A stretch of 26,457 nucleotides of DNA. It comes from Galdieria sulphuraria (Eukaryota; Rhodophyta; Bangiophyceae; Galdieriales; Galdieriaceae). Position numbers and translations under genes: made by a program. Numbering within the stretch: position 1 is the first letter of the stretch; every line of letters begins with the position of its first letter. The notes under the pieces were generated by a model, which worked only from the letters and a program-made list of their open reading frames with translations, had not been told where the DNA came from and made no database searches. Shown in pieces: positions 11,356-25,000 of this stretch. The stretch lies in the NCBI RefSeq assembly GCF_000341285.1, contig NW_005178431.1, forward strand, positions 1-26,457, given 5' to 3'.

Positions 11356-12552
11356 TTACACTTCAAGCTCAAAGTTGGCTGCTTGTACTGCGGTCATTTG
11401 TGTATGGAGACAAGGAGCGTAAAATAGTTCCCCAGTATATGCTCTTAAGAATGTGTTCACCATAACGATCCACCACAATATAAACAATACGCAAATAAAG
11501 ATGGTCGCCGATATTTTAAAAAATAGAAGCTGTGTCAATTTGTACAGATCCACAGTAGCCGCACTAAAGACTCCCAAAGGAAAAATAAGGCCCCACCAGC
11601 CAAGATTGAAAGGAAGACGATCTACAAACGTCTTTATGACTGCGAAAACTGCAAGAACGAGCCACCAAAAACCATAACCCCATAAGACACACGCTACTAA
11701 TATTCCTATTGCTGAAGTAGCCGAGGCAAGACTTTCATAAGCCACATCCGAAAGAGTATCCCCGAGACTTGCGAATATACGAGGGGCTGAAATACTGAGA
11801 CCAGTGGCTGCTAATGCCGCTGAACCTATAGGACCCAGAGGTAAGAAACAGCTAATAATTAGATCATTCGGTGGCAATTTGTGTAACACTAGGCGAAGGA
11901 AGAAAATAACGAGAATGCTCATTGCTATGGGCACGGATATGCCCCATAAGATAGCACTCAAAAATGCAATATAGCGAGCAAAAGCTATATTAGCAATGGT
12001 TGGTAAGATAACTCCACCAGTCGCTGCCGCTACTTCTGCTGGAACAACAGGTAAAACCCAAACGGCTGTCATCTTCTTCAAGGTGTGCTCATGTGTGCTT
12101 ATCATATAGATAGGAACAAGTAAACCAGAAGCCAAAGCCAACACGACGTTGATGCACCATAAAACCTCTGCTAGAGTTACAAATCCCGGACCCCATACCG
12201 GAACACAAAATAAGGCAACACCGTTGACTATTGTGGAAAGACCCATAGGAATAGCACCTAAGAACATGGATTGGACAGGATGGGAGAACATGGGTAAAGC
12301 GTCTTTGAAATAGAAAGTCCAACGAGCTAAAAACAGAATACTAAAAATAGTGAAGAGACCAACGTTCAACCACCAATATGCCCAAGCCAAGTCGAACAAG
12401 TGCGTAAATGGAAAAGGAAAATCATGTAAAAGTACCGCCAGAATACCAGTCCCCATAGTAGCAGCGAACCAACTTGGTATAAACTGTCGAACTATTTCCT
12501 TTGGACTGTCAATCTTTGTTAGTGGTTTTGGTATCTGTTTCAACACTTTCAT
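11356..12552 (-). CDS. TDT/SLAC1-family transporter (malate or sulfite type)
   Basis: An intronless gene of 398 residues with about ten hydrophobic segments. The N-terminal PSWFAATMGTGILAVLLHDF is the hallmark opening of the voltage-dependent anion channel / tellurite-resistance dicarboxylate (TDT) family, which includes yeast Mae1-type malate uptake, fungal Ssu1 sulfite efflux, bacterial TehA and plant SLAC1. The loop with PLGPIGSAALAATGLS and the late WWGLIFPLGVFSAATVDL segment also fit. Substrate cannot be read from sequence; organic acid or sulfite export would suit an acid-dwelling alga (inference). Both termini are short and no regulatory domain is attached. Being intronless among spliced neighbours, it is a candidate for acquisition from a microbe, though the TPR gene nearby is also intronless. 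It is head-to-head with the F-box gene across about 800 bp. Confidence 0.8.
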   Translation of the reverse strand: MKVLKQIPKPLTKIDSPKEIVRQFIPSWFAATMGTGILAVLLHDFPFPFTHLFDLAWAYWWLNVGLFTIFSILFLARWTFYFKDALPMFSHPVQSMFLGAIPMGLSTIVNGVALFCVPVWGPGFVTLAEVLWCINVVLALASGLLVPIYMISTHEHTLKKMTAVWVLPVVPAEVAAATGGVILPTIANIAFARYIAFLSAILWGISVPIAMSILVIFFLRLVLHKLPPNDLIISCFLPLGPIGSAALAATGLSISAPRIFASLGDTLSDVAYESLASATSAIGILVACVLWGYGFWWLVLAVFAVIKTFVDRLPFNLGWWGLIFPLGVFSAATVDLYKLTQLLFFKISATIFICVLFILWWIVMVNTFLRAYTGELFYAPCLHTQMTAVQAANFELEV

Positions 12553-13355
12553 TTGGTCAACTGTCTACACACAACCAATCCAAAGAACAGACTTTAAGTA
12601 CCGACGATACATAAAAATTTCTTCCAGAACTGAATTTGATGCCAATCAAAAGTAGAAAAAGGGCGGCTCTTCTGGAAGTCTTTATTTGCTGTCTTTTGCT
12701 TGGGAGGGGAATCAGTTGGATGTAAAACTTGTGATACTTGTTGATGTGTCACTTCATAAAGAATAACATATACTGAGGAGAAAAAAACATTTTTGGGCAA
12801 CTAGGACATTATGACTCAAAGCGTAGTTGATACCATTTCAGAATAATTCATAAGATGTATTATGTTTCAAGTGGGAACGAAACGAATATCTTTTCAGTGC
12901 TATTGTGGAAGAGTTGTTCAAGCAAACCTTGTATACATTTATCTTCTAAAACGTTTTGTCAAATAGTTTGCAAACCTTGTATTTGATAAACTATAAACGT
13001 AACTCATTTCTTAGTCTTTTTAAAACAAAGCAACGTATATATTTCATGTAGTTTAGTCACCTTGAAAAGGAGCGAGAGAAGTAATCACAACCAGACGATC
13101 TTCCCGCCGCTTCGATTTCTGTTGAGAGAATTGGAGGATTTCGTTGTTCGACTTGAAAAGGAAACAACGAGTAAATTATAGGGAAGGGTTATTCTTTTGA
13201 AATCTAGCTCTGAATCAGACAGAGTCTACAATTTCTCGTAAGCTCCTAGTATACGAATATAGAAATATAGTTTCTAGTCATTCGTTTGAACCTTGACCCG
13301 CTGTGGCACGAATCTGAAACAGTCTGTGTTATGCTGCAATTAATGGAATCGGACC
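12553..13355. other. Long divergent promoter region
   Basis: About 800 bp lie between the start codons of the transporter (minus) and the F-box gene (plus), long for this window. A 68-codon minus-strand frame at 12594-12800 begins with TTG and has no family resemblance. A 13 bp direct repeat is described separately. I see no RNA gene. The space probably holds two promoters and 5' UTRs. Confidence 0.45.
12922..12982 (+). repeat. 13 bp direct repeat in divergent promoter
   Basis: GCAAACCTTGTAT occurs at 12922-12934 and again at 12970-12982, 48 bp apart start to start. It could be a paired factor-binding site, but chance is possible in AT-rich DNA. Confidence 0.4.
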
Positions 13356-14715
13356 ATGTTTCTTGAAACACTGCCAGCAGGTATACAAGGCCCTTTTCTT
13401 GGTTTGTTATAGACTCTAACCTAATATTTCAGATGTTTTGAGGAATATATGCTGTCACTTGGACGGTATATCTCTAGCTCGACTTTCTAGCACCTGTAGA
13501 AAACTTAGAAACGTTTGCTCAGATGAGACTATATGGCTTGCTTGTGTCAAAAAAGAAATCCTGGAAGATGTCAAAGAAGAATTTATTCCGTTGTTAAACA
13601 AAAATTCTCCCAACCAAAGGGGCTGGTATAAGATATACCAATCACTTCATGGAGCTTCTTCACCCTGCTCTAGTGGTGACGGTTTGGATTTAACTACCAA
13701 CTCTTCGTTTACTTTCGATATTCCAGATTTCTCAGGCTTGAAACAATTTACTTTGAGTTTCTGGTTTTTCCTTGCCCGAGACGCAGATACACGTGATTTT
13801 CGTGCTCTCTGTTTTTTAGTTCCCAGTAAGGAAACCTTAAATGGTACTTTATGTTTACTATTAGGAGATGAAGACAATCGTTGCCATGTTTCTCAAGTCA
13901 TCTCGTCGAATGGAAATGTTCAAAGTGTTGATGAGGAGTCCGTATCGGTTCATGAAAGAGACAGCTTTCTTGTAGCTTCAAGAGTTCATTCCACTTTAAA
14001 GGAACTCCCATTTTATGAGTGGTCTCAAATTGTATTGGTTTGTCATCCACAAGACTCTGATGAACCTTGTGAGGCACCTTTTGAAATTTTCTTGAATGGA
14101 GAATCACATGGTGTGAAATTCGCATTGCCTGTCGAATACAATTTGGCAGCCAACTCCGTTCAATTGACATTCGGTTCTATGGATGGCCGCGCTAGGTTAC
14201 CTAATGCTTTTGGTCATTTGAGTAGAATCTTATTGATACCTCGTGCTGTCGACTCGTTGGGTTTATTGGCAATTTTACATCAAAGTTCGCCCTTTCTACC
14301 TTATCCCTTGTCTTGGATAGTATCGGCACAAAATGCATTTCATGAACGTGTAAATGAGGTACGTGTCCTAAGGAATTTTTTGGTTTGCATTCTGAATATG
14401 AAAATGGTGCAGATTGTACATGCGTCTAAAAGTTGTGACTTTTGTCATATCTTTCCAATGAAAGGCATTATTTATCGTTGTTTAGAATGTTTTCCAAGCT
14501 ATGATTTGTGTATGAAATGTTTCGAATCGGATGAGTTTATATTGGGACCATCGCTTAGTGACCATAGAGATGATCATCTGTTTCTTCCTGTTCGGAGACC
14601 ATGTTCCTTTCGATATTTTACTTATTTCAGACGTCATTACTCGACTGGTTTGATAAGTGTCACTACGAATGATTTGGAGCAAATAACTTTAGGCAATACT
14701 AGAAATGATGAATAA
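13356..14715 (+). CDS. F-box protein with LamG-like and ZZ zinc-finger domains
   Basis: Three exons (13356-13380, 13433-14358, 14413-14715) encode 417 residues. The tiny first exon supplies MFLETLPA, and the 52 bp intron joins it in phase 1 to complete an F-box at residues of about 3-45 (LPADVLRNICCHLDG ... LSSTCRKLRNVC). Residues of about 85-275 read as a beta-rich concanavalin/LamG-like sandwich (FTLSFWFFL; WSQIVLVCH; FEIFLNG). Residues of about 322-375 are a ZZ finger: CxxC, CxxC, CxxC and a closing H-x4-H. An F-box suggests an SCF ubiquitin-ligase substrate receptor; the other two domains would bind substrate or ligand (inference). The 54 bp second intron is stop-free and a multiple of three, so retention would insert 18 residues before the ZZ finger. 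The gene ends tail-to-tail with the facilitator gene. Confidence 0.75.
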
Positions 14716-14823: not shown

Positions 14824-17298
14824 CTACCACTTGCTTTGTTCTATTTTCCATGGCCAAGGAGGTAAGCCACCTGCAATTATATAAATCATCAATAACAAAC
14901 CACTTTCTAAATAAAAAAACGACCGTCCATAAGTGAAAGGAAAAGGCAAATTCAGAGAAATAGCAGAAGCAAAAAGCGAACCCCCAATTACTGGTCCCGC
15001 CGCAAAGCCAGCACTTTGCAAACCTTGAGCAAGGCCTAAAGCTATTCCAACAGAGGAAGGATGTACAGAATTCTTCACAATCAATGCAATACCGGCCCAA
15101 CAACACTGTTCAAAAAAAGCCAGAAAAATATCAAACGATGCATAACCCAACCAAGATGCTATATTCTTTCTACTCCATCCAAATGAAGTAATGATAGCTG
15201 GTAACAAATAATCTAAACTCCCGACAAATAGACCTAACCGAATGGTCTTTACAACACCAAGTCTTCTAGCAATAAAAGGAAAGATATACAATGCAACGAG
15301 AATAGTTGTCATACCACTTATAGCCTGGACAAGTCCAATATCTGTTGAGGAAAATCCAAGTCCTCCAAAACTGGGTTGCGTGGAAGCCCAAATGGGAATC
15401 ACTTCATCTCCAGCCATCAAGGTAAATGAGATAAGCACAGCCACTATTAATACTTGACGAAAAGTTCGATTCTCAATGATAGCACCAGTTGGTTCCGGAA
15501 GTATTGTTCCTTCTTCATCAGGAGAAAATAAAGGAGTCTCTTCTATATTATTCTCTATAACTGTACTAGCCGCATCTTCTTCATCTATTCTTAACCTTTC
15601 AATAGCTTTCGAAGGAGCTCTAGAACGTAGGGCAGGAGAAAGCAAATTTGTAGCAGTAGCACCCAAACTTCCACTTAAACCATATGTCACAAAACTTGAG
15701 CTCTCACTACCTCTTCTTTCCGCGCTCGAAATCCCACGATTCTTTGGATACTCATCAGAGTAAAACCAATCATCTTCCTCCATTACGTCTCTTACTTGAG
15801 AACCCTTATATTCAGTTTCGTCATTGTTGTTATTATCTTCTTCTCTTCCATCTTCAGGAATACTAGTGCTTATAGAAAGACTTCGTTGCGAAGATGATAA
15901 TGCCTTGCTCCTCTTGTCTATCTCATCGTCTTCCGGTTCTAATATAGTCTCTGTCAGTAAAGGACCGATCTGTTCCGTATAACTTTCACGATTACTCCAA
16001 GAAAGACGATCATCCCACTCATGTTCCCTTCGTTCCCTACCTCTTCTACTACGAATGGATCGAGTTGAAGGCGTTGCTAGACCTGTAAAATCACGGGACC
16101 TCTCCGAACCAAGCAAAGGGCTTCGCAAGGAACGATTTGTCGGAGAAAATTCATTCAACGACATTGGTATAGAGGAGAATAGACTTTGACTCATTCGAGG
16201 TGTAATTCCAACTTGTCTTTCAAAACTTTCCAGTAGGTTTCTATCCAAAAAATTCTTCTCCTGTTCCCTTACAGATAAAACATCTGAAGGTGCCACAGAT
16301 ACCGTTTCAACTCCAGCTGACGAGTCGATCCATACTCCGGACTCTTGTGCAGAAGCATTGTCCGTAATTCCATACGCATAAGATAAATTTTGCTCTCTCG
16401 TACTGAAGTCATATCTGGGCTTACTTTCATCGAGAAAGAAGAATGCAAAAATTAAATCAATAAAGATATAGATAGAAACCACTAAGCAAGGTAATAAATA
16501 AGGATATCTGTCAAGAAGCGAACCAGAAGAAACATATTGAGGAAAATGTACTGCTGGTCGTGATAAGAATCCACCTATAACAGGTCCTATAACAACACCA
16601 ACTCCAAAGGTCAACCCAATCAAACCGAAAGCAGCGGATTCATTTGTAGAGTCCGTCACATCAGCTAGATAAGTTTTTGCCACAGCAATATTTCTACAAA
16701 GAGTCACAATATATTTGAAAAGGCTAATACTGACTTACCCACTAGAGAGGCCGTGTAAGAAACGAAATATCAAAGAAGTCGCTATATTTTTTGCCGTTCC
16801 AAAGAGATTAATAAAAATAAAATCGCCAAGTAGACCAACAAGTATAACAGGTCTCCTTCCTATTTGATCACTCAAAGCTCCCCATAATGGACTTCCAAAC
16901 ATGGACCCCAATGTAAAGCAAGAAGCAATCAAACCTGAATAGTAGCCTACTTCATTTTGACGCCAATCTGGTATGTTCATGAGGTCTCTTACCAAGAATG
17001 GCGCAAAAGGATAAACAACTATGCAAGTCAACAGAAATACTCTGAGAAGCAAAATTACTCACTAGTTACTGAAAATGCATCGGCTAGCACAGCAAGACCC
17101 AGAATAACACTATCAAATAAAACAAAAAAGTTCAGCTTTAGAACTCAACACAGTCAAACTAGAAACTCACAGTCGAAGAGTCGGAAGCGGAGTTGTGGTT
17201 GGTTTGGGTAACTCTAGAGATAAAGTTGGTTTCTCTGCAGGTGTGGTAGTTGCTTCTGGAGAAGGATATCTAGGAGGAAGGACCGAACTCTTTTTCAT
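14824..17298 (-). CDS. Major facilitator, ZIF1/ZIFL-like, with long acidic-serine loop
   Basis: Four exons (minus strand: 17171-17298, 17063-17109, 16739-17018, 14824-16693) with introns of 61, 44 and 45 bp give 774 residues. The first half matches plant ZIF1-like transporters and yeast YCR023C: VILGLAVLADAFSVTIVYPF in helix 1, GYYSGLIASCFTLGSMFGSP, the MFS signature GALSDQIGRRPVILVG, and a GLTFGVGVVIGPVIGGFLS segment. Helices 6 and 7 are separated by about 315 residues rich in S, R, E and D, where most family members have a much shorter loop. Plant relatives act at the vacuolar or plasma membrane on zinc-chelator or proton-coupled organic solutes; the substrate here is unknown. A 44 bp intron must be removed to restore helix 1; the unspliced reading would insert a false hydrophobic stretch. 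The start codon lies 17 bp from that of a possible small plus-strand gene. Confidence 0.75.
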
Positions 17299-17781: not shown

Positions 17782-19849
17782 CTATAGAATGTTTTGTACC
17801 TGTTCACGAATTCTTTCAACTTCCTCCTTGATAAGTATAGCTCGCATACTAATATACGAATCAGCACATTTCGCGGTGATAGTGTTGGCTTCTCTTAGCC
17901 ATTCTTGACAAATGAAATTGAGTCGTCGACCAACCTGAGGTGCCACTTTTAGACTTTCGGTAAAGAAATTTAAGTGAGAACGAAATCGAACTGTTTCTTC
18001 GGTTATATCGATTCTATCCGCTAGTAGTGCCAATTCTTGGTCGAGACGAGACTCATCAATAGCATGATTTCCTTCCAAACAATCCTCAATCCTTTGCTTC
18101 ATTCTTCTCTTTTGCTGAACAACTCTTGTTGGAGCATACTGATCAATTTCGTCCAACCAACCACGTAATAATTCTATTCGAGTTTCTATATCAGCTACTA
18201 ACCTTTCTCCTTCTTGTCTTTGTACTTCAATTAATGCCCGTATTGCTTTATGGAAAGCCTCTTCTATACAAGGCCATAGATCTTCCTCACTATTTCATTT
18301 TGTAAAAAAAAACTACATCTTTAAACGACCGCTCAACAACTTACTTTTCAATCATATGTTCTTTTGAACGAATAACAAGATCACGAAACTGGAGTACATG
18401 GTTTAGATCTATTGGAGTCTGAACTTTTAAAATTTGAGATATTCGTTCAAGTATTTGTTTGATATCTTTCACAGAGGGTTCCATTAATGAGATTGGCAAC
18501 GAGTCCTCAGAAGCAGAGATCGACACGGAATAATGAACTTTGCCTCGACAAAGAAACTGTTTCAAAAGATTGTGTATTTTGGATTCTGAACCTTCCAACA
18601 TGGGAGGCAGAGTTCCACAAATATCTAAATATCTCCCATTTTGTGATCTTAAATCTACTGTCACCAGGGAATACTTTCCGAAAGATTGCGCTCTACTGAA
18701 TCCCGTCATGCTTTGAACAAACATTTTCTCTTGATGAAAAGAATTCAAAGAATCTTGCATATGGAGTGCTTCTAGTGCCTGTTGGTGTAAGGTATTTGTT
18801 CTTGCTGCCAAGACACAACCTGAATAGGAAGAGATTGTTAAGGAATTCCCATTCCAATCAGTGATACATCCTCCGGCGTTTTCAATGATTGGAACAAGAG
18901 CCAAATAGTCCCAAGGCTTAAGATCCGCTTCTGCAACCAAATCAACAAAACCACTTGCCAACAAAGCATATGCATAACAGTCACAACCATACAATGTATA
19001 TTGTACTCGTTTCGACAACCCTTTAAAGGCATCTAACATTTCATTATGAAACATATCTGGTGAAGTCGCATATAGTACACAATCTCTCAATTGATCTTGT
19101 GAACATGATTCTCTTTGTAAAGTATTCGATATAGGAGTATCGTTATAAAACGCACCATATCCTTTCGCACCAAACCATCTTTCTCTCAGTATAGGTTGAT
19201 CGATAATTCCAAGAATAGGAATTCCTCCCTCTAAAAGGGCTATTAAAGTACCAAACGTTGGTTTACCAGTCATAAATGCTTTCGTTCCGTCAATCGGGTC
19301 AAGAACCCAAGTATAATCCGAACAAGTTTCGTTAGATAACGAGCCAAGAGATTCTTGTCCTTCCTCCTCACCTAAAATATTATGTTGTGGATAACTTTGC
19401 TTTAATAGAGTACGCAACGTTCGCTCAACTTCTTTATCCGCCAGAGTGACCGGGCTTTGATCAGATTTGACTAGGAATCTGTTGGTTTTCCTAAAATGTC
19501 TTCTTAATATAGACCCAGCAACATCAGCTAACTGAAAGGCAAGATCCACATAGTTCTTGGGGACTACTTCCGACATATACACGAACAAGTGATTACTGCT
19601 TTGAGAACTACAAATCCTTAGTCTTCGAGGCCTCCAGTGGTGAAAAGAATATCTACGAGTTCGAAAGGAAAGTTCAAAAAAGTTGTAGGACGCTCTAGTA
19701 GGTCGATTACGAAGAAAAGTCAAGTTGTCAGCATGAATAGACATACAGGGCTGACATGATGGAAATTTCCAAAGATATTCCACAAAGTGACTCCGAATCA
19801 TTTTACTGTTAACAAAAAGATTCTGATCCAGCCGGTGATCGCTCATCAT
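17782..19849 (-). CDS. Fusion: HisN-type histidinol-phosphatase + YicC-type endoribonuclease
   Basis: Two exons (18345-19849, then 17782-18289) joined over a 55 bp GTAAGT intron encode 670 residues. Residues 1-95 are rich in R, S and F with few acids and could be a plastid transit peptide, with Met36 a possible alternative start. Residues of about 98-365 are an inositol-monophosphatase-fold enzyme: metal ligands in GEEEG (160-164) and DPIDGTKAF (184-192), then GKPTFGTLIALLEGG, GIIDQP, ERW, and WDYLALVPIIENAGG (313-327). The GKPTFGTLIAL and GIIDQP-ERW text is typical of plant HISN7/IMPL2, which performs the penultimate step of histidine synthesis. From residue 378 the chain is a complete YicC protein: QSMTGFSRA, RSQNGRYLDI, RGKVHYSVSI, QVGRRLNFICQEWLREANTI and a C-terminal IREQVQNI. 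Bacterial YicC/YloC are RNA endonucleases. The linker is about 12 residues with no stop or intron. Met376 could start a separate YicC product. Confidence 0.85.
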
Positions 19850-19989
19850 TCCACAAACGGACTTTATTGGTCGCTAAAATTCAAAATTACGTCTGTACAT
19901 TTTCTTTCGATGCCAAAAACTCACAAACGGTGTGAGAACCTACACAAACTTGAAGAATTAAATAACTAAGACAAACTACGCTTGAAAAA

Positions 19990-20796
19990 CTAAAAGGGGA
20001 CAACGGCATCATCCTCTTCTTTTTCTCTATCCAAGGTTGAGGGGCAAGTATCGGATAGGTCACTTGTGACCACACTTGTAAAGGACTCGTTCACCTGGAA
20101 ACCGAAGTCTTTCAGAGCTTCGACAATTTTTTCTTGTAACTTGGAGACTTGTCCTTTGCAACTTTCTAAGTCTTCTGGTTGAAGCAATAACACGTAGTCG
20201 CCGTTGTCGACCAAAGCTGCGACACAGGGCAACGCACAGCTAACGGCGGATCTTAGCTATGTATCGAGTCAGACATGGTAGCTAAAAATTGAAGAAAAAC
20301 GAACCTTTGGTTCCATTTCATCTCTATGAATATTGAAAAGGGGAACACCTAGCCAACCTGTCTTTTGGAGTATTGTCCACTCCGGTTTTACTTTTCTTGG
20401 ACCGTGGGTAATATCACAAGCAGCACAGTGACCTTTTCCTAACCACTTTCGAAGCAGGTAGAGTAGCTCTCCCGCAACTGTCCCGTCTGCGTCATATACT
20501 ATATACAAAGCTTCGAGTGATACAATCTTGCGTTCTACTTCCATAGGCTTCTCTATTTCCTTCCAGACTTGCTTTCTTGAACACAAGGTCATTTGTTTGG
20601 TGTGAATCAAAAAGCCACGAAAGGTAAAGTAGTCAGTGAATTGTAGAAGACTGGAACATAAGCAAATAAATAGCAACAATAAATTTGACAACTTTGGTGG
20701 GGTTGCACACTGCCCTTTATTTGGATTTCTGTGGTGGAGATCAACTGATGCCCAGCCATAAGATATTTCCATTTTGGCGCAAAATCCTTGATTCAT
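19990..20796 (-). CDS. Conserved protein of unknown function (CDITHG motif)
   Basis: Two exons (20305-20796 and 19990-20256) joined over a 48 bp GTTCGT...CATAG intron in phase 0 give up to 252 residues. The recognisable core is LYIVYDADGTVAGELLYLLR followed by HCAACDITHGP and VPLFNIHRDEMEPK. After the junction comes SAVSCALPCVAALVDNGDYVLLLQPEDLE. I recall small bacterial and plant proteins with the same DADG / CALCDITHG / HRDE pattern, but no assigned function. The paired cysteines and histidines suggest metal binding or redox, which is speculation. The start is uncertain: the first ATG (20796) adds about 70 residues with a hydrophobic LLLLFICLCSSLL stretch that may be a signal or non-coding, while the ATG at 20592 starts closer to the core. 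The last 30 residues are acidic and probably disordered. The gene lies 140 bp upstream of the fusion gene on the same strand. Confidence 0.6.
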
Positions 20797-22006: not shown

Positions 22007-25000
22007 ATGGAAGTCTTTCCTTGTTTGGAAAGAGAAGGAAGAAGTAGTTCGAGTCCTTCGGATAACAACCATAATAGTACTTCCAAGACCGATACACTGA
22101 AAGTTTATGTTAGAGTGCGACCATTAAATGTTAGGGAGCGTGAAGTGGTAAGATCGACTAGTCTGTCATGGCAGATATATGGAAATCAAATAACGCAGTG
22201 CCACGCTGGTAAACCGTTGACCTATTGTTCTTATGCTTTTGACAGAATATTTACACCTGAAGATAACAACAAAATTGTTTTCGAAGAAGCTGCTAGTTCA
22301 GTGGTTGACTCGGTAATCGATGGTTATAATGGTACCATATTTGCTTACGGACAAACTTCATCTGGAAAGACACATACAATGCTAGGTACACCTGAAGATA
22401 AAGGAATTATTCCGCTTTCCATTTATCAAGTTTTTGGACGCCTCGAAAGGATAGAAGATAGGGAATTCCTGCTAAGAGTATCCTACATTGAAATATACAA
22501 TGAAAATATTCGAGATTTGTTAGCACCACATAATGAAAATCTCAAAGTACACGAAGATTTCAATGGAAGGGTGTTCGTCGATGCAAAGGAGGAAGTTGTT
22601 GATACTCCTGAGACAGTTCTTGAGATAATGAAGAAGGGAGAAAGCAATAGGACCATAGGTTCGACCAACATGAATGAACATTCTTCACGTTCACATACGA
22701 TATTTACTGTCTTTATTGAGTCTCGTGAAAAGAATAGAGACATTGAAAGCGATGGACTTTCCGTGAGAGCGAGCACGTTGACTTTAGTTGATTTAGCTGG
22801 TTCTGAGCGTGTTTCCCAAACAGGTGCTGAGGGATCAAGGCTGAAGGAAGGCATGCATATAAACAAGAGCCTACTCACGTTAGGGACTGTCATTAATAAG
22901 CTATGTGAAGGAGTTAATAGTCATATTCCTTATCGAGATTCCAAGCTTACTAGAATCTTACAGCCTGCATTGGGTGGTAACTCAAAGACAACTGTTATTT
23001 GTGCAGTCACTCCTGCTGCTATGCATATAGAGGAAACTCATTCAACGTTGAAATTTGCGAGTAGAGCAAAGAAGGTAAAGATTAATGCGTATTGCAATGA
23101 AATTTTAGATGACAAGGCTATGTTGTCGAACTATCGTAAGGAAATAGAAATGTTGCGTAATCAGCTGACGGAACTGCAACAAGATCGTCAAGGAGGAGAA
23201 AAATCTTTACCTTATGAAAGTGGTCAAGAGATTATTCGAGAAAATGTTGACAGTGAACCAACACTCTCAGAGATAGATTTTTCTGCTCCCCGAAAGAGGA
23301 TGTATGATGGTTATATCAACGATGAACACTTGTCAAAATTGCAAAAACTCTCAACTCACCATTGCGTTATCTCGACAGAATCTCCTCGCAAGCGGACAGT
23401 CGTTTCTTTCGTGCATGCATCATTTGACACATTCGACTACATGGAAAGTTATTTGGTGTCTCTAGAAAACACTCTCAAAGAAGAAGAAAACGAAATACAA
23501 TGTTTAAAGAGTCAACTTATGCAAGTAACAAACAACAACGAGTTGTTAGAAATGGAGAATGCTTCTTATAGAAAGCGTTACACTGAGTTATACAGTCAAC
23601 ATTGTTTTCGAGTGTCGCAAGATGTCGTTACGGATTTAATGAACAACGTCGTGCAAAATGAGTTGGAAAGATGTTCTGAATTGAAGTGCAAACAGTGGGA
23701 GCAACATAATAGAAAACAAGATGAAAAGTTGTTCGAATTGTTTCAGCAGAAAGAAGAGTTGGAGAACAGAATCAACGCTTTGGAAGCTGATTTGTCCAAG
23801 AAAACATCACAGTTAGAAACATATCACACGGCTATGCTTCCCAATGGGAATCAGTCTATTTTAAAGGAAAATGACTCCTTGAAACAAAAAGTTACGGAAT
23901 TGGAGTCAAAATGTCGCTCTTCCAAGGTTCTTTGTTCGCAAGCAACATCAGAGAAACAGCAACTGGAAAGAGAGTTGAAAGTTTTGCAAAAACAGTTGCG
24001 AAAGCTAGAAGCGGAGAATGTGAAATTGAAGGAATCTTCTTCGAAACAAAAGGAAAATTCATCGCAAGTGAACAATTTGGAAAATAAGCTGGAAGACTTG
24101 ACGAAAGATAGAGAGAAAACTATGGAAGAATTGCAAACTCTTGAAAAGGAAAAGAATGAATTTATGCTTGAGAATAAGACGTTGTTAATGAAACTAGAAG
24201 AAGCAAGAGAACGAGTTGAGAATTTTCGGAGCGATTTGGAACAGAGTAGAGAAGAGTCATCTAAGGTCGCTGCTCAAAACGAGTTGCTTCAACAAGAAAA
24301 TGAACAGATGCGACACCAGATAGTGTCTTTGAATGACAACCTTGAAGAAATTTCTGCAATTAAGAAGAGCTTATCTAGAAATGTGGAAGAACTGGAACAA
24401 AGAGTACATGTACTAGAGAGTTCCTATAATGAGTTACAAAGTCGTCGTGAAGAAGAGCAGAGAGAATTTGAGGAAGAGCGAAACAGCAACTATGAGCAAC
24501 TAACGGAAGCACATTTACAGGTATGGATTATTTTTTATTGATCTTTTTTTGTAAATATTTTGGAATAGCTGGAGCAATCGAAAGTTGCAATAGAGCAGTT
24601 ACAAGCGTCGCTCAGCGATGAACAGAAAAAATCTCAAAGCTACTATTCCGAGTTAGAGGAGGTCCGAGAAAAATACGTAGAAGATACGGAACACTGGAAA
24701 GAGTTGTCAGAACATAAGGATTCTGAATTCGAGAGAATTTCGGTTCTTTATTCGGAGTTACTGACCAGTTTGGAGTCGGTGGACAGTGAACGACGTCAAC
24801 TGGAAAGAGATGTGAATGACTGTTCGCATACTATCCTATTGATAAAGGAGCGCTTGGAACTTGTTTGGAAGGAGAAGCAACAGTTATCGATGGAACTGGA
24901 TTTGTCTAAAGAGTTGCGCGATAATTATAAGCCAATCTGTAAAACTTCGATCCCCTCGCTCAGTATCAACCCTTCCACAGTCATAAGTTTGCTTCCAGTC

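Follow-up and report, generated by a model that had tools for sequence, protein, structure and literature searches.

The locus analysed here raises the question of whether a histidinol-phosphatase and a YicC endoribonuclease are genuinely joined in one nuclear gene of the red alga Galdieria sulphuraria and, if so, where the two halves came from and what the join provides. YicC is an RNase that is conserved across bacteria and whose cellular role is unknown (PMC10793500). A preliminary description of the DNA had proposed that both proteins are encoded in a single gene. We examined this proposal in the 26,457 nucleotides of contig NW_005178431.1, the whole stretch analysed, subsequently referred to as the window.

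One open frame with a single intron

The gene was delimited by open reading frame analysis and splicing. It occupies 17782..19849 on the minus strand, from the first in-frame ATG at 19849 to a stop codon at 17784-17782, and encodes 670 aa in two exons. Exon 1 belongs to a stop-to-stop frame of 510 codons (18341-19873, minus strand), and the chance of finding this many stop-free codons is about 7e-16 at this base composition without selection. The frame is followed by a short gap and then by a second open stretch up to the stop codon. A GT-AG intron of 55 bp lies at 18290..18344 on the minus strand, after the second base of codon 502 and thus inside the YicC part; its ends read GTAAGTTG...AAATAG (18344-18290), and its removal gives an in-frame join with 670 residues counted from ATG 19849. 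To place this intron, both strands were searched for 40-79 nt gaps that start with a GT[A/G][A/T]G donor and finish in AG; 60 open codons were required on each side, as well as a stop if the gap was left unspliced. The scan returned 17 solutions in total, several of them alternatives for one donor. The stretch 18344-18290 was the sole solution at its donor, in agreement with the one clean 55 bp intron of the preliminary description. With a 45-nt gap at 16738 and a 48-nt gap at 24521 among the other solutions, short introns of this kind seem to be usual in the window. Galdieriales are reported to carry more than 10,000 introns and Cyanidiales fewer than 50 (PMC9812998), and an intron-bearing fusion gene therefore fits the former better.

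The candidate start codons in frame are M1, M2, M17, M36 and M92. M17 (19801), whose ATG is preceded by AAA, is an alternative start. The upstream neighbour on the same strand has its stop codon near 19990, about 140 bp (19850-19989) before the ATG of the fusion gene, so that the promoter and leader of the latter must be short. Two other reading frames in the window gave domain matches. One is a long single-exon ORF at 11356-12564 (minus strand) that covers nearly the whole profile of the SLAC1/TehA anion-channel family (Pfam, 7.7e-85); the other (13420-14715, plus strand) carries both an F-box domain and a ZZ zinc finger.

The phosphatase, the linker and the start of YicC are all located within one stop-free exon. 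The linker (residues 364-375, 18725..18760, minus strand) is in frame and free of stops, and its 12 residues match the length given earlier. We infer that a 3' end and a promoter could hardly be accommodated in these 36 bp, though the neighbouring genes are close-packed. The two halves also resemble each other in codon usage: GC3 is 0.292 in the phosphatase half and 0.281 in the YicC half, the corresponding means of log synonymous codon usage are -1.035 and -1.043, and both halves fall within the 2.5-97.5% range of size-matched windows taken from the seven long ORFs of the window. Since the YicC half contains the intron, and since its Pfam match becomes continuous over the junction once the intron is spliced out, this half should be nuclear and eukaryotic. 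Bacterial contamination was considered and rejected in view of the intron and the codon usage.

"Misannotated fused genes" are named as a problem in red-algal gene sets in PMC9812998. The fusion described here does not depend on gene prediction, since the open frame can be read directly in the DNA. The claim that a single open frame carries two domains of named families was borne out by the Pfam and NCBIfam matches detailed below and by the 510-codon exon. Judged from the DNA, this nuclear gene is likely to be a genuine fusion between two known families.

The phosphatase half and its N-terminal extension

Residues 102-363 (18761..19546, minus strand) were assigned to the inositol-monophosphatase superfamily, HISN7/HisN type, by Pfam, NCBIfam and a phylogenetic tree. 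The Pfam model Inositol_P matches this region with an E-value of 1.6e-56 and 192.2 bits (cut-off 27). The region contains the motifs GEE (160-162), DPIDGT (184-189) and KPWD (311-314), which we take to be the metal-binding motifs of the superfamily. Against the HisN model TIGR02067, the whole protein scores 270 bits and the phosphatase half alone 273.5 bits; these scores are 1.7-5 bits below 275.15, the curated cut-off, which is a threshold meant for annotating prokaryotes. The next best NCBIfam family follows with 104.8 bits for the whole protein (CysQ) or 108 bits for the half alone, so that all rankings point to the HISN7 type. As the curated cut-off is narrowly missed, we use the label HISN7-type and do not regard the domain as a proven HISN7. 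Membership in this family suggests histidinol phosphate as the probable substrate.

A tree was calculated from 36 rows, consisting of the query, 30 HisN sequences of Pseudomonadota and five chains from the PDB; in it, the phosphatase half is the partner of chain 5eq7 from Medicago, with a support of 99/94. We take 5eq7, the single plant sequence in this tree, to be the Medicago histidinol-phosphate phosphatase; the PDB listing gives "Inositol monophosphatase". This pairing, with one plant sequence compared, suggests that the phosphatase half is most likely a resident, plant-type enzyme. It shares with the plant HISN7/IMPL2 proteins (Medicago 5eq7; Arabidopsis At4g39120) the metal-site motifs, an N-terminal extension and, in the case of Medicago, 50% sequence identity. 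It differs from them in that a whole YicC is attached to the C-terminus and that the fusion scores below the TIGR02067 cut-off, whereas the aligned part of the plant chain 5eq7 scores above it (302.8 bits).

The N-terminal extension, residues 1-91 (19577..19849, minus strand), is a candidate plastid transit region by its composition. It is basic and rich in phenylalanine, with 14 K+R, 5 D+E and 9 Phe residues, in contrast to the acidic phosphatase body (23 K+R, 33 D+E). Arabidopsis IMPL2 is a plastid protein, and its N-terminal 77 residues suffice for targeting (PMC4288329). Given the plastid location of IMPL2 and the basic, Phe-rich and acid-poor extension, the fusion protein is probably plastid-targeted as well. 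The organelle targeting put forward in the preliminary description thus stands as a prediction, drawn from the basic extension and from the location of the plant counterpart.

The YicC half is complete and conserved at functional positions

The YicC/YloC endoribonuclease part comprises residues 376-670 (17785..18724, minus strand), begins with its own methionine, M376, and is split by the intron. It scores 194 bits against TIGR00255, the whole-protein model of YicC/YloC (curated cut-off 167.5). Both Pfam domains were found: YicC-like_N (PF03755) at 378-532, with an E-value of 1.5e-30 and a score of 107.1 (cut-off 25), spans the splice junction in codon 502, and YicC-like_C (PF08340) at 550-669 has an E-value of 1.4e-36 and a score of 125.7 (cut-off 27).

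Alanine mutants of E. coli YicC are inactive at M5, N28, R30, E216, E217, F244, R251, E252, R280 and E281 (PMC10793500), and all ten of these positions are identical in the fusion. The published mutant set covers 15 positions (PMC10793500), of which 14 could be compared in our alignment; the fusion is identical at each of the 14. The exception, E287, lies outside the aligned chain, where the fusion ends in Leu, and the E287 mutant is active (PMC10793500). The conserved set includes the catalytic Glu cluster (E216/E217/E252/E281) and the RNA-binding residues R30/R251/R280, in addition to M5, N28 and F244. Together with the GEE, DPIDGT and KPWD motifs of the phosphatase, these 14 residues bear out the earlier remark that both halves look intact, as far as residue identity can tell. 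The fold of both halves appears settled by homology to solved structures.

When compared with the E. coli enzyme YicC/YloC ("RNase CS"; 8ver, 8ves, 8hvj), the YicC of the fusion is likewise full length, at 32% identity. In contrast to its E. coli counterpart, it is part of an intron-containing eukaryotic gene and follows a phosphatase domain. Because M5 is located only a few residues past the join, the active cavity of the YicC half could be disturbed by the attached domain.

Origin of the YicC half

The best matches to the YicC half came from the phylum that contains the Ignavibacteriae, which we take to be the Bacteroidota in the wide sense, Ignavibacteria included, following the GTDB placement. 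All 99 of its 99 genomes gave a match, the best one with 203 bits, and identity ranged from 35 to 40% among the 15 best. Best scores were 153 bits in the gammaproteobacterial phylum (Pseudomonadota; matches in 187 of 299 genomes), 144 bits in the acidobacterial phylum (79 of 80) and 137 bits in the phylum of the treponeme (54 of 80). Among 14 control genomes, the YicC N-terminal family was present in five, and it was absent from the cyanobacterium and the archaea of this set.

This placement agrees with a comparison against eight reference rows, in which the Ignavibacteriae row was the closest one for 12 of the 15 top-scoring members of the wide Bacteroidota and not for the other three. The seven low-scoring members that were checked were all nearest to Phocaeicola, Parabacteroides or Prevotella (Bacteroidales), with 38-51% identity. 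In three of the best-scoring loci of this phylum (L162, L165 and L166), YicC resembles a gammaproteobacterial or acidobacterial sequence about as closely as those of its own group; the 62-row tree described below keeps these three inside the group.

Three trees were calculated. In a quick tree of 87 rows, the YicC half grouped with 15 rows of the phylum and the Ignavibacteriae row (SH-aLRT 99). A more careful tree of 62 rows, which adds Bacillota, Fusobacteriota, named alphaproteobacteria and Phocaeicola, placed it with Bacteroidota/Ignavibacteriota at 100/98, Phocaeicola being inside this group. With nine extra rows from the Bacteroidales side (71 rows), the wide Bacteroidota group comprised 27 rows at 100/99. 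Inside this group, the YicC half joined the Bacteroidales-like rows at 60/73, and an Ignavibacteria-like position was equally good (p-AU 0.516, 71-row tree). A position just outside the Bacteroidota-group rows of the 62-row tree had a p-AU of 0.437 and was retained. Holding the YicC half with four Clostridia cost 25.9 log units (p-AU 0.029). An alphaproteobacterial, i.e. mitochondrial, origin of YicC was rejected at a cost of 45.6 log units (p-AU 0.00116).

The query sits on a long branch (1.62 in the 62-row tree, 1.35 in the 71-row tree), Chloroflexota, Planctomycetota, Chlamydiota, Cyanobacteria and others are outside the trees, and the donor phyla are sampled unevenly. "Bacteroidota-like donor" should therefore be read as a working statement. 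With this proviso, the trees suggest that the YicC half was probably gained laterally from a bacterium of the wide Bacteroidota. In PMC6629376, Bacteroidetes/Chlorobi are reported among the sister groups in 10 of 96 candidate families for lateral transfer into Cyanidiales, which makes a route from Bacteroidota to the alga plausible.

One of the bacterial sequences deserves a separate comment. The YicC of the MAG Gammaproteobacteria isolate HyVt-560 (L001, 1820-2677) reaches 153 bits, compared with 131 for the next among the Pseudomonadota listed. Despite this high score, it groups with gammaproteobacteria in both the 87-row and the 62-row tree.

Previous reports

Among the matches listed in our searches of the open-licence literature, we found no report of a HISN7-YicC fusion or of a eukaryotic YicC, and queries for YicC/YloC in eukaryotes and for histidinol-phosphatase in Galdieria returned nothing. 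The only match for a YicC endoribonuclease fusion in open-licence papers was an annotation of Haemophilus hypothetical proteins. The main text of PMC6629376, the paper on lateral transfer in Cyanidiales, is without the terms "YicC", "endoribonuclease", "fused" and "gene fusion". Viral contigs were also searched for the fusion, which gave two pattern matches and no relative.

A multifunctional protein of the histidine pathway is known from plants. HISN2 is a bifunctional enzyme whose two domains are analogous to separate bacterial enzymes (PMC8102479). The fusion resembles HISN2 in combining a histidine-pathway enzyme with a second domain, and would likewise be multifunctional. However, the two steps combined in HISN2 belong to one pathway, whereas the partner in the fusion is an RNase.

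A model for the fusion and its alternatives

The explanation that we favor, with a probability of roughly 0.72, is that a resident gene of the HISN7 type and an acquired, complete YicC gene were joined and share expression and organelle address, giving one message and one protein. The lineage would have acquired the YicC gene from a bacterium of the wide Bacteroidota (Ignavibacteria included), and the complete YicC would then have been joined in frame to the resident phosphatase with its N-terminal targeting extension. One message would be transcribed, the 55-nt intron removed and one protein of about 75 kDa translated. By family enzymology and residue identity, the phosphatase half is expected to hydrolyse histidinol phosphate with metal ions bound at the GEE/DPIDGT/KPWD site. 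The same considerations predict that the YicC half forms a hexameric clamshell and cuts RNA by means of its Glu cluster and Mg2+; such a hexamer would bear six phosphatase domains. YicC would gain the promoter and the organelle address of a housekeeping plastid enzyme. This gain is most likely the advantage of the join, and a metabolic link between the two reactions would not be needed. Of the three ideas offered in the preliminary description, the one that the fusion gives an acquired bacterial YicC a transit peptide fits best, since the phylogenies give the two halves different kin, the plant enzyme for the phosphatase and the wide Bacteroidota for YicC. The targeting itself is one that we infer.

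It is also conceivable, but unlikely, that the locus yields two products, the fusion and a free YicC, the latter arising either by initiation at M376, with a promoter located within the phosphatase coding sequence, or by proteolytic cleavage of the linker. In sequence comparison, the YicC part starts at the same point as free bacterial YicC, and M376 (position 18724 of the window), which has been kept and has AAA before its ATG, is the apparent original initiator methionine of YicC. It looks like a relic of the free gene and, given an internal promoter, may be a second start. However, 24 ATGs in all frames precede M376 on the long message, which makes leaky scanning to this codon unlikely. A scan of the linker for bacterial-type promoters and terminators is uninformative for a eukaryotic gene.

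We consider it rather improbable that the tether serves a functional coupling of histidine supply to RNA cleavage, for example in that histidinol phosphate or histidine status alters a plastid YicC, or that YicC controls messages related to amino-acid status. The more specific version, in which the acquired YicC has been built into the plastid histidine pathway and RNA cleavage is coupled to its penultimate step, either allosterically or by co-assembly of six phosphatases, seems equally doubtful to us. Both active sites look intact and would be on one chain, and the maintenance of two activities would be easier to explain if the join were useful. However, the bacterial genomes examined give no hint of such a link. 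We examined 192 YicC-carrying loci (out of 222; 173 distinct sequences), whose flanks ranged from a few bases up to 6 kb with a median of 1.5 kb, and a HisN homologue was found beside YicC in none of them, at E-value thresholds of 1e-6 or 1e-2. The search for the HisN family itself covered one phylum, the Pseudomonadota, where HisN was above the cut-off in 31 of 150 genomes, 23 of which also had a listed YicC. By-eye comparison of the coordinates in these 23 genomes showed the two genes on the same contig in eight, at least 590 kb apart, and on different contigs in the other 15, which give no distance. Instead, yicC was found beside or near gmk in four annotated loci: upstream of gmk and rpoZ in three from Bacillota, and upstream of gmk and nadD in Parabacteroides. 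Descent from a hisN-yicC operon thus receives no support from the bacterial loci examined, which represent few phyla (Pseudomonadota in the HisN search).

That one half is non-catalytic and a mere anchor or oligomerisation domain for the other is similarly improbable. In its favor are the score of the phosphatase half, slightly under the HisN cut-off, and the long branch of the YicC half (1.62; 1.35); against it, the metal-site motifs are present and the YicC functional residues that were compared have all been kept.

An assembly or sequencing error, whether a false junction of two separate genes or an overlooked stop or frameshift in the linker, is very unlikely: a 27-nt imperfect repeat does touch the linker and the region upstream of the gene, but it is a two-copy match of about 21/27, of a kind often due to chance, the join lies between complete domains, codon usage is unchanged on either side, and joining at random would seldom produce an in-frame linker of 12 codons. 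The two copies of this direct repeat (78%), at 18721-18747 and 19897-19923, read GAAAATGT on the minus strand; one overlaps the beginning of the YicC part and the other is about 50 bp upstream of the first ATG of the gene. The repeat is perhaps a product of chance or a trace of the YicC gene's own leader.

Biological meaning

From the sequence comparisons, the fusion of these two known families is likely to be an unusual one, with a probable lateral gain of YicC. It would be a tidy case of an acquired gene that obtained expression and targeting through fusion. If the two activities do interact, the protein would represent a new type of link between metabolism and RNA. A eukaryote with an acquired YicC fixed to a housekeeping enzyme would provide a natural tagged version of this RNase, together with a likely cell address, and hence a route to the targets of YicC.
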